From IMG/VR virus record IMGVR_UViG_3300031857_001069, positions 1 through 27,963 of that record: a stretch of 27,963 nucleotides of DNA; one strand, 5' to 3'. Every line of letters starts with the position of its first letter. The first letter of the stretch is position 1. Below, piece by piece: positions 13,727-24,498 of this stretch. A model generated the notes under the pieces. The model searched no databases, had not been told where the DNA came from, and saw nothing but the letters and a program-made list of their open reading frames with translations. Source of the stretch: a virus. A program made the position numbers and the translations under genes.

Positions 13727-14770
13727 TCATACGCTCTTATCAAAATGTACTCTATTTACGCGAATAAACTCTGCACATTTAGGCAAATCTTTTAGACTAT
13801 CTGCACCAAGATATGCACAGGTACTACGTAGTCCTCCTAATATATCATCTATTACATCAATTGCATCACCTTTATATGGAATAGATTTTACTCTACCTTC
13901 ACTTGCACGGTAGTTTTTAATTCCACCATACTTTTCTTGTGCTTCGTGAGAACTCATGCCGTAGAACTTTAAAACGCGACCTTCACTGGTCCAAGTCCAA
14001 TCGCCCTCGCATTGTTCTGTTCCAGCAAGCATACCACCAAGCATGACAAAATCCGCTCCAGCAGCAAAGGCTTTTGCAACATCGGAGGGAGTTCTGCAAC
14101 CGCCATCTGCACAAATTCTACCTAGGTGCTTATCTTTAGCTTTTAAACCATGTGCAGCATGAGAGCATTCATCTATTGCAGAAAGTTGAGGATATCCCAC
14201 TCCTGTCTTTAGTCTCGTCGTACATGCCGATCCCGGTCCTATTCCAACCTTAACAATATCAACGCCGCCGTGTAAAATTAATTCATGAACCATTTCTGGA
14301 GTGCATACATTGCCAGCCATTATAATTGTTCTAGCCCCAAATTTTTCTCTTATCATTGCACAGTGATCTACAAATTGATCGGTATATCCGTTTGCAACAT
14401 CAATGCATATATTGGGGACTGCTTCAATAGAATCAACAAGTTTCTTGAGTTTTGTGATTTCATCATCACTAATTCCCATGCTATACCAAAATGTGTTAAG
14501 ATTTTGCATATTTAAAATGTAATCGCTTACATCGTGGTGCTTATGTAAGCACGTTATACAATCTCTCTTAGACAATGATTCGGCCATTTGAAAAGTGCCA
14601 GTTGTATCCATATTGGCTGACATTATTGGAATGCCGCTCCACTCAAGAGAAGAATGGAAAAACTTAAACGTTCTTTTTAAGTCAACCAAGGACCGTGATG
14701 CGGCTCGGGATCGCTGTGGAACGAGTAAGACATCATCGAAATCTAGTTTTGTGTCATTATTTATGTTCAT
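13727..14770 (-). CDS. guaC: GMP reductase
   Basis: Catalyses NADPH-dependent deamination of GMP to IMP. It matches bacterial GuaC in both length (347) and sequence: KLDFDDVLLVPQRS at the N-terminus, PIMSANMDTTGTF, CIDVANGYT, VKVGIGPGSACTTR with catalytic C183, TGVGYPQLSA, ADGGCRTPSDVAKAF, FVMLGGMLAG and FYGMSS. IMP dehydrogenase would carry CBS domains and a longer flap; both are absent, so GMP reductase is preferred. It starts 14 bases after the rIIB terminator with GGAG six bases before the ATG. The enzyme is unusual in phages and would lower GMP and feed adenylate synthesis. Confidence 0.95.
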   Translation of the reverse strand: MNINNDTKLDFDDVLLVPQRSRAASRSLVDLKRTFKFFHSSLEWSGIPIMSANMDTTGTFQMAESLSKRDCITCLHKHHDVSDYILNMQNLNTFWYSMGISDDEITKLKKLVDSIEAVPNICIDVANGYTDQFVDHCAMIREKFGARTIIMAGNVCTPEMVHELILHGGVDIVKVGIGPGSACTTRLKTGVGYPQLSAIDECSHAAHGLKAKDKHLGRICADGGCRTPSDVAKAFAAGADFVMLGGMLAGTEQCEGDWTWTSEGRVLKFYGMSSHEAQEKYGGIKNYRASEGRVKSIPYKGDAIDVIDDILGGLRSTCAYLGADSLKDLPKCAEFIRVNRVHFDKSV

Positions 14771-22853: not shown

Positions 22854-23399
22854 TTAACCTTCCTTTTCAAGTTTATTAATAACATTATTACAAAAATTTA
22901 TTACTTCATCATCTGAAAAAGTATTCCTTGCATAATTATATATTAAAGCAACAAATCTAATATTTCCTTCTATATATCCTTTAGTATTATCAATTCTATC
23001 TATAGATGCAGAGTATGGATTTTTAAGGCTATCTTTTGAATGTGTTCTTAAAACTAATGTCTTATTTGTGAATGGACATATACCATCCTGTTTTTCCCAT
23101 AGGTTTTTGAGATATTGACAATTTACATTATATTTTTGATTTTTTCTTTTAGAGCTTTTTCGTATGACTTTCATGTACCATCTAAAATTAGAATATTCAT
23201 CTGTCTGTTTTGTATATTTTACATTCTTAAAATTGTCTTTAAAGTTTTTTAGATGCTCAATGTTATTCTTGTTTTTTCCAGAACAACTTAAATTACAATA
23301 AAATTCTGTTCTGCCATTTCTTAACTGTCTGTTTATTTCGTTTTTCGGCTTGGAAATAGTCTTTCCGCAAGTATTACAAATTAAATCTATTGTTTTCAT
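22854..23399 (-). CDS. HNH-type (homing-like) endonuclease with N-terminal zinc finger
   Basis: 181 residues. An N-terminal C-x2-C...C-x3-C zinc ribbon (C8, C11, C35, C39; FYCNLSCSGK) resembles a DNA-binding module. A basic linker leads to a C-terminal nuclease domain with KQDGICPFTNKTL, SIDRIDNTKGYIEGNIRFVA (D134, D137, N146) and YNYARN, a common phage HNH-like homing pattern. GGAGG precedes the ATG by seven bases. This SD is one arm of a 12-bp hairpin whose loop holds a late-type promoter. Together with its position beside the tmRNA, this suggests a free-standing homing nuclease that could target ssrA or neighbouring phage DNA; the target is inferred. Confidence 0.82.
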   Translation of the reverse strand: MKTIDLICNTCGKTISKPKNEINRQLRNGRTEFYCNLSCSGKNKNNIEHLKNFKDNFKNVKYTKQTDEYSNFRWYMKVIRKSSKRKNQKYNVNCQYLKNLWEKQDGICPFTNKTLVLRTHSKDSLKNPYSASIDRIDNTKGYIEGNIRFVALIYNYARNTFSDDEVINFCNNVINKLEKEG

Positions 23400-23405
23400 G
23401 ATGCT

Positions 23406-23443
23406 GCCTCCACTACTTTATACACAAAAATAGCAATGGAGGC
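23406..23443 (-). promoter_or_regulatory. SD-sequestering hairpin of the HNH gene
   Basis: In read-through RNA GCCUCCAUUGCU (23432-23443) pairs with AGUAGUGGAGGC (23406-23417): 12 bp with two G-U pairs and a 14-base loop. The 3' arm contains the GGAGG SD. The loop contains the GTGTATAA promoter motif, so RNA started there would lack the 5' arm and leave the SD free. Confidence 0.78.
23416..23425 (-). promoter_or_regulatory. Late-type promoter motif of the HNH gene
   Basis: GTGTATAAAG lies inside the loop of the hairpin at 23406-23443, just after the tmRNA 3' end. No -35-like element is present. It matches the five other GTGTATA sites in the window. Confidence 0.66.
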
Positions 23444-23453
23444 GATAAGAATA

Positions 23454-23807
23454 TGGTGGAGGCGGCGATCTTCGAAAATCGCGTCCAGAGTAATTTCAAC
23501 ATAAACATCTACATCCATATGCGATTATTTTTCACCAATCGCCAATGCTATCCGCACACTTAGCGGAGTCATGTGGACTACCACAATCTTATCCGATTGC
23601 TTTGACGGATCGACGCAGTTGACTTATCAACGTCAGCATGATTGGGCAATACGGTTCATGCCACCGCACTCTTGCCTAACTAGGTCAGGCAGCGAGAGCG
23701 AAACGAGTTTCGCCAACTAACATTTTAATCGACTTTTATACTGGCCGGTCGATCAACCAGTGGATGCCATCTACATTTACGTCTACCTGTCGATACCTTT
23801 CGCCCCC
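23454..23807 (-). ncRNA. ssrA: tmRNA (transfer-messenger RNA), one-piece
   Basis: 354 nt. The acceptor stem GGGGGCG (23801-23807) pairs with CGCCUCC, then A-CCA (CCA encoded); pair 3 is G-U, the alanine identity element. The D-loop has GGTATCGACAGG, as in bacterial tmRNA. The T arm is GCGAT-loop-ATCGC. P2 forms between ACGTAAA and TTTATGT and between CATCC and GGATG. PK1 is ACTGG/CCAGT with TGATCGAC/GTCGATTA. The tag frame at 23685-23714 ends in UGA inside hairpin P5 (TGCCTGA/TTAGGCA). Further pseudoknots include ATCCG/CGGAT with CAAT/ATTG. The T-loop is eight bases rather than seven. It starts one base after the stop at 23809, so RNase P processing from the upstream mRNA is likely. Confidence 0.97.
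23685..23714 (-). other. tmRNA tag reading frame (GETRFALAA-stop)
   Basis: The resume codon GGC follows TTAGTT, the counterpart of the UAGUC seen before the resume codon of E. coli tmRNA. Nine codons give GETRFALAA, then UGA. The ALAA end is the usual degron recognised by ClpXP/ClpAP; the tmRNA-borne Ala precedes Gly in the tag. Encoded Gly first is unlike the Ala-first tag of E. coli. Confidence 0.9.
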
Positions 23808-23808
23808 T

Positions 23809-24498
23809 TTATATGTACCATAAATTATAATATTTGAAACGATTTATTTTATTGTCTATACCTATGATACAGTTATTATGTACTATAATTGCATCTTCCA
23901 ACGATCTTCCGTCATGAAAACACATTCCGTTTAAAAATTTGTTCTTGTCTAAGTATTCGTACTTGTCATTAGAAATGATAGCTGTTGAAATTAAATGGTT
24001 TATTAATTCTTGATCTGTTCCAGCGTGTGTTTGAAATACTTCTACATTTTCTAATGTTATTTCGAGAAAGTCTTTAGAAGCTTGATCTTCATTAAATACC
24101 ATAAATCCAGCACATGCAGTGCCGTTTGGGAATTCATCTTGTAAAAGTGTTTTGTTGGTTTTAAAGAATAGCCTTGGATCTTTTCTAAATACTATATCAC
24201 AATCTGTGTAACAGATTTTGCCATATTTTTGATAGTTTTGATAAATTATATCTAGTTTTATCCACATTAAGTTTCTGAATTTATTTCCAATATCTTGTGA
24301 ATAATTGTGATATTCAGTTACGTCTTGGTCTATAAATAAATAACTATTTGAGTGGAACTCACGAATTGTTTCAAATGCCAGTTTGTCTATACATGCAACT
24401 ATAAAATCATTATTATCAATGCCAGACATTCTAGCACTGGCTATTAGATTTTTGCACATTTCTGTGCATCCGTTATTTGTATACGTAACAAACTTCAT
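23809..24498 (-). CDS. Nucleotide-diphospho-sugar transferase (GT-A)
   Basis: 229 residues with the plan of PF03407-type enzymes: an N-terminal strand (KFVTYTNNGCTEMCKNLIAS), the DxD motif in KICYTDCDIVFRKDP (D99, D101), CAGFMVFNED, and GTDQELINHLI (D162-Q-E164) near the acceptor site. It would transfer a sugar from a nucleotide donor; the acceptor is unknown. It overlaps the thioredoxin gene as ATGA and ends one base before the tmRNA. Phage surface-glycan or virion glycosylation are possibilities. It is the third glycosyltransferase-like gene in the window. Confidence 0.84.
   Translation of the reverse strand: MKFVTYTNNGCTEMCKNLIASARMSGIDNNDFIVACIDKLAFETIREFHSNSYLFIDQDVTEYHNYSQDIGNKFRNLMWIKLDIIYQNYQKYGKICYTDCDIVFRKDPRLFFKTNKTLLQDEFPNGTACAGFMVFNEDQASKDFLEITLENVEVFQTHAGTDQELINHLISTAIISNDKYEYLDKNKFLNGMCFHDGRSLEDAIIVHNNCIIGIDNKINRFKYYNLWYI

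Follow-up and report, generated by a model that had tools for sequence, protein, structure and literature searches.

The tmRNA gene and its neighbours

The window analysed here comprises all 27,963 bases of a linear IMG/VR virus record, which is probably a fragment of an uncultured T4-like phage. Two features adjoin on its minus strand: a one-piece tmRNA (ssrA) of 354 nt at 23454–23807, with its 5′ end at 23807, and a putative HNH/EndoVII-type endonuclease gene encoding 181 residues at 22854–23399, which starts 54 nt downstream of the tmRNA. The T4-like setting proposed in the original prediction agrees with the origin of the contig as a virus record and with the surrounding genes: the best matches of rIIA are to T4-like phages of Enterobacter (about 30% identity), NrdA matches cyanophages at 55%, and NrdB, dUTPase, ThyX and SSB are recognised by ORF reading. 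We also note an IMP dehydrogenase/GMP reductase (IMPDH) family gene at 13727–14770, and a glycosyltransferase gene (PF03407) at 23809–24498, upstream of the tmRNA gene and ending about 1–2 nt before the tmRNA starts. Locus L009 (L-numbers label the compared loci, most of which are metagenomic contigs) has a thioredoxin-like gene directly upstream of its tmRNA, so that the glycosyltransferase gene may be a further insert, on the 5′ side of the tmRNA. A search with the upstream glycosyltransferase gave a single match, of 14 residues only, and at the DNA level the tmRNA with its flanks found no real relative among annotated phages.

In a cmscan of Rfam, RF00023 (gathering score 47) matches 23807–23454 on the minus strand with 74.5 bits (E = 1.9e-27) over the whole model (1–374). 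The ends are exactly those at which a complete phage tmRNA had been predicted, with the strand left unstated, and the RNA is more stably folded than its shuffled versions (z = −3.9). The acceptor was correctly described: the 5′ strand GGGGGCG (23801–23807) forms 7/7 pairs with 23458–23464, including G3·U70, and the 3′ segment at 23454–23464, identified by the RF00023 match and by direct reading, consists of CGCCUCC, the discriminator A and an encoded CCA. The T arm, GCGAU-UUUCGAAG-AUCGC (23465–23482), is preceded by GGAC, and its stem (GCGAT/ATCGC) is paired 5/5. The tag frame (23685–23714), established by direct reading, by script and through ARAGORN in relatives, begins with the resume codon GGC and reads GGC GAA ACT CGT TTC GCT CTC GCT GCC TGA from 23714 to 23685, i.e. 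(A)GETRFALAA and a UGA stop that falls, as had been claimed, within the predicted P5 hairpin. This ending in small or hydrophobic residues plus a stop is conserved in relatives. By its sequence, then, 23454–23807 (minus strand) is a complete one-piece tmRNA of alanine identity (G3·U70) with an encoded CCA and the tag AGETRFALAA, and given these three features it is expected to work in trans-translation as other tmRNAs do.

The predicted T arm is present, but an abnormality of its loop had been overlooked: positions 23470–23477 form an 8-nt loop in place of the 7-nt UUCRANN loop that is usual for tmRNAs, though not strictly defining. ARAGORN, which had been suggested as a check, reports no tmRNA in the window, most likely because the loop has 8 nt and not 7; it detects the relatives L005, L011, L016, L019 and L020, all with a 7-nt T loop and the same tag. 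The 7-nt loop is found in near relatives without the endonuclease, e.g. L005. The later pseudoknots are only partly supported, with low posterior probabilities through PK2–PK4 in the RF00023 alignment. A group I intron in the window tmRNA was considered and dropped because the T arm is continuous; the acceptor is likewise uninterrupted and no intron match was found there.

Bxz1-like mycobacteriophages are known tmRNA carriers. tmRNAs, which release stalled ribosomes, have been reported in 402 of 18,146 phage genomes (about 2.3%; PMC9004378) and are also borne by huge phages (PMC7162821); since they are already known in phages, the window tmRNA by itself is another phage tmRNA and is not new. 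A close parallel is Methylophilales phage Melnitz (PMC9004378), which likewise has a complete ssrA together with T4-like replication and transcription genes, although its tmRNA is two-piece and that of the window is one-piece. The window tmRNA differs from those of both Melnitz and the Bxz1-like phages in its 8-nt T loop and its 3′-end endonuclease module. The tmRNA core is common to 53 viral stretches of the same phage group, and is thus a standing gene of the lineage, poorly described as the "rare acquisition" that had been proposed. Many phages of this group (e.g. L005 and L020) keep the tmRNA without the endonuclease, and in some members an EndoVII-type gene or a tRNA gene takes the neighbouring position. 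A second endonuclease gene of EndoVII type (PF02945) lies at the tmRNA 3′ end in L012, L013, L015, L006 (2829–3194) and L331–L407; genes of this type are found within 250 nt of a tmRNA in 55 of 80 loci, sometimes stacked behind the HNH gene.

The 181-residue protein matches phrog_3322 (endonuclease, E = 1.5e-19) and phrog_1035 (endonuclease VII, 4e-11), and neither it nor its family has a credible match in Pfam. A structure model built from 42 relatives has a pLDDT of 90; HNH-type folds are among its structure matches, the first and nearest PDB fold being the HNH endonuclease PacI, with a probability of 0.99 but a weak E of 0.025. We infer that the protein is a DNA-cutting enzyme of the HNH/EndoVII type, although the canonical HNH histidine is not conserved in the family, which has the motif DRID...GY..GN instead, and this counts against cutting. 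Between the two genes is a 12-bp leader hairpin (23406–23443, minus strand; −19.3 kcal/mol, z = −3.4) that hides the GGAGG ribosome-binding site of the endonuclease gene and has promoter-like sequence (TATAAA, or TATAAA/TATAAT-like) in or near its loop. All 11 of the other leaders folded also form hairpins there, of varying strength. T4 homing endonucleases have a hairpin of this kind with a late promoter within it (PMC2988022), and by analogy expression of the window endonuclease is probably delayed. An operator copy of the homing site is known for I-TevI (PMC2988022); the leader hairpin (GCCTCCA) resembles the tmRNA 3′ end and could be read as such a copy, but SD/anti-SD complementarity explains the likeness equally well.

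Cassette boundaries and the upkeep of the tmRNA 3′ end

The predicted tmRNA is real, but comparison with related loci indicates that it and the endonuclease gene next to it make up a single mobile unit, which had been overlooked. The window and L009 share 98–100% identity over a block that runs from the 5′ end of the tmRNA to roughly the stop codon of the endonuclease gene, after which identity drops; the flanks are about 76–80% identical where homologous, or unalignable. The edges of the block coincide with the tmRNA start and the endonuclease end, and 22854–23807 on the minus strand is thereby delimited as a putative mobile tmRNA–endonuclease cassette. Insertions can be seen in two further sets of relatives. 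First, the tmRNA body of L007 is 98–99% identical to those of L005 and L020, with 91–94% identity downstream, and L007 has an insertion (587 bp relative to L020) that is absent from L005 and L020 and that also swaps the T arm. Secondly, L006 and L015 have tmRNA bodies that are 99.7% identical and differ by a 619-bp insertion, and in L006 the old T arm and 3′ end (GGCTTCAATGCCAACGCCTCCACTT) are displaced behind the inserted gene; in L042 a displaced 3′ end (CTCCCCGCATCTCCACCA) directly follows the endonuclease stop. These 587–619-bp inserts hold one ORF, that of the endonuclease, and an integrase island was dropped as a reading because they lack an integrase gene. As judged by sequence, the T arm, the acceptor 3′ strand and the CCA of the window tmRNA are one unit with the downstream endonuclease gene.

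The tmRNA ends remain well paired. Among 39 standard tmRNAs, with the ends free to shift by up to 3 nt for best pairing, acceptor (7/7) and T stem (5/5) are fully paired in every one, and G3·U70 is present in 39/39; there are 18 versions of the acceptor and 25 of the T stem, and the means for shuffled pairings are 0.74 and 0.53, respectively. Because all of these pairs form despite the many versions, the ends brought in by swapping still give a tRNA-like structure. L116, L114, L128 and others, all from the window's phage group, have altered acceptor stems in which every change is compensated (e.g. GGGCTAG/CTAGTCC) and G3·U70 is kept. This upkeep bears on the view that insertions broke the 3′ end of the window tmRNA and left a non-functional gene in decay. 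Its 8-nt T loop, the low posterior probabilities of its later pseudoknots and its being missed by ARAGORN could all be cited in favour of decay, but the acceptor and T stem stay fully paired across many compensating changes, G3·U70 is invariant, the -ALAA tags are intact and the fold is stable, which makes decay very unlikely.

Some T loops depart from the usual form, an unusual loop being one of 8 nt, 6 nt or another length, or one without UUC. Such loops occur in 12 of the 31 endonuclease-linked standard tmRNAs and in three of the four tmRNAs linked to an EndoVII-type gene, but in none of four strictly comparable endonuclease-free tmRNAs, nor in any of 15 when biased controls are included. 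The contrast of 12/31 with 0/15 (Fisher p = 0.004) is taken as suggestive, because 11 of the 15 controls came from a filter that favours canonical loops and only the 0/4 are comparable. The loops without UUC in endonuclease-linked loci are AGCATAG (L044), AGCATTA (L103), GGCAGCA (L063) and GGCAGTG (L081). The pattern suggests that altered T arms (with the 8-nt loop in the window, and 6-nt or other loops elsewhere) may protect the new tmRNA copy from cutting, although in the majority of the endonuclease-bearing tmRNAs the loop is an ordinary 7-nt UUCRA one, which counts against immunity through the T loop.

Association of the endonuclease family with tmRNA genes

Relatives of the endonuclease were collected by protein profile alone from viral contigs, keeping the best 80 loci, together with matches from the first search and from phage records, and were clustered at 90% identity; adjacency to a tmRNA was judged by Rfam scans, ARAGORN and exon reading. 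Among the matches listed there are 60 clusters, and a tmRNA adjoins the endonuclease in 46 of them. All 45 close clusters among these matches (HMM E ≤ 2e-26) adjoin a tmRNA T arm or 3′ end, and the 14 listed clusters without an adjoining tmRNA are remote (HMM E of 1e-22 to 1e-11). In a tree these 14 are split from the tmRNA-linked clusters by a single change, with weak support and long branches, and the same tree requires at least 13 switches between types of arrangement.

The arrangements are diverse. Beside standard tmRNAs, the endonuclease gene starts 39–118 nt past the tmRNA 3′ end when on the same strand, and ends 2–41 nt from it when on the opposite strand (convergent). With permuted tmRNAs it abuts or overlaps the gene end that holds the T arm (L063, L081, L089, L090, L052, L084 and L088), lies close to the T-arm end (L102), or occupies the spacer between the two halves (L041 and L146, the latter being crAss-like phage cr56_1). 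Where a group I intron splits the T loop, the endonuclease gene is antisense within the intron in L065 and L147 (crAss-like phage cr128_1) and probably so in L148 (crAss-like cr6_1), for which a group I intron and the 3′ exon can be recognised but not the 5′ end of the tmRNA; in L053 and L092 it lies just beyond the 3′ exon of an intron-split tmRNA. What is common to all of these arrangements is nearness to the tmRNA T arm and 3′ end.

The same loci hold other RNAs of note. The tmRNA genes or exons of L146, L147 and L148 are unannotated and fall in annotation gaps of the deposited crAss-like phages, RAGATH RNAs are present in such gaps in L146 and L148, and a GOLLD RNA (L074, 4391–4805; 325 bits) is situated about 1.4 kb from the endonuclease gene, beside a tRNA-Met match.

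An ordinary phage tmRNA could stand beside an unrelated endonuclease by chance, with the 8-nt T loop a product of drift. Phage tmRNAs (PMC9004378) and scattered phage endonuclease genes (PMC10448857) are both common, and the tmRNA of the window's phage group sometimes has an EndoVII-type or tRNA gene for a neighbour instead. We nevertheless regard coincidence as highly improbable: the listed clusters that adjoin a tmRNA, all of the close ones included, do so at standard, permuted and intron-containing tmRNAs in both phages and bacteria, and the edges of the shared block are those of the tmRNA and endonuclease genes themselves. Nor does linked inheritance within one recent lineage fit well with the number of changes of arrangement in the tree.

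No relative was found when bacterial genome contigs were scanned with a six-sequence profile, and a 42-sequence profile did find relatives there. In Calothrix, Scytonema and Scytonematopsis the endonuclease gene begins some 70 nt beyond the tmRNA, which in these Calothrix-type genomes is the only tmRNA match above the cut-off. Endonuclease matches are present in 11 of 118 genomes of the Calothrix/Scytonema family, most of them a double-domain reading frame of roughly 340 aa. In MAGs labelled Firmicutes, Tenericutes and Erysipelotrichaceae (L278–L280) the endonuclease lies beside group I introns, and in L278 tmRNA-like exons surround it.

These bacterial copies bear on the alternative of a replacement strategy, in which the endonuclease destroys the ssrA of the host or of a competing phage and the phage supplies a cut-resistant tmRNA. 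Such a role would account for the joint travel of phage tmRNA and endonuclease and for the deviant T loops of the linked RNAs. It is unlikely, however: the tmRNA persists in many phages of the group that have no endonuclease, the intron-borne copies fit homing better, and the Calothrix gene adjoins the bacterium's own single ssrA, and so cannot be a weapon against that gene.

Homing as a candidate mechanism

We consider it likely, from the loci compared, that the window carries a complete tmRNA of a T4-like phage together with a homing-endonuclease module that rebuilds the 3′ end of the tmRNA gene it invades. The features expected of a free-standing homing endonuclease are seen here: an endonuclease domain, and a gene at its presumed target that is present or absent between similar flanks. 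The 181-residue protein would recognise the T-arm/3′-end region of tmRNA genes that lack the module and would cut them there. Repair from a module-bearing copy would then import the endonuclease gene, and with it a substitute T arm and 3′ end; because these arrive together, the tmRNA would stay intact, and the old 3′ end would be lost or left behind the endonuclease gene. A more general proposal, which we hold to be moderately probable, is that an HNH-type lineage in phages and some bacteria has specialised on tmRNA genes, whether one-piece, permuted or intron-split, and that by homing into the T arm and supplying a replacement 3′ end it drove T loops away from their near-universal 7-nt form.

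Several known systems share parts of this scheme. Nawrocki et al. 2025 (PMC11915505) described integrase islands as well as T-loop group I introns of tmRNA genes, of which 36 of 883 carry a homing endonuclease gene; the endonucleases were LAGLIDADG in those typed, and LAGLIDADG genes were detected by Pfam. The target region is the same, and relatives of the window endonuclease lie inside such introns (L065, L147 and L278–L280), but the window itself is intronless and its endonuclease is HNH/EndoVII-like, free-standing and of a family outside credible Pfam matches. T4 and cyanophages have free-standing homing endonucleases (SegB at tRNA genes, MobE and F-CphI; PMC2988022, PMC6083498) that are likewise small genes beside their presumed targets, have a hairpin over the ribosome-binding site and spread by intronless homing, as we infer for the window; the window differs in that the region targeted belongs to a tmRNA gene and that the module would supply a new T arm and 3′ end. 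Integrase-borne ssrA islands likewise insert at the 3′ end, restore it and displace the old end, whereas the inserts described above consist of the endonuclease gene only. A search of the open-access literature yielded no description of a family of free-standing HNH-type endonucleases at tmRNA genes. Taken together, the tmRNA and the endonuclease point to intronless homing aimed at a tmRNA gene, with the 3′ end of the RNA rebuilt.

If this is correct, a homing parasite devoted to tmRNA genes would join group I introns and integrase islands as a third kind of invader, with the same few dozen bases serving all of them. Because members of the same family are found both in T-loop introns and free-standing at intron-free tmRNAs, the debated origin of mobile introns, with a free-standing endonuclease first and the intron afterwards, becomes directly testable. 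Standard tools miss loci of this kind: ARAGORN passes over this tmRNA, and no Pfam model fits the protein. Homing would also help to explain the presence of tmRNA genes in phages, as linked cargo and as a landing site.
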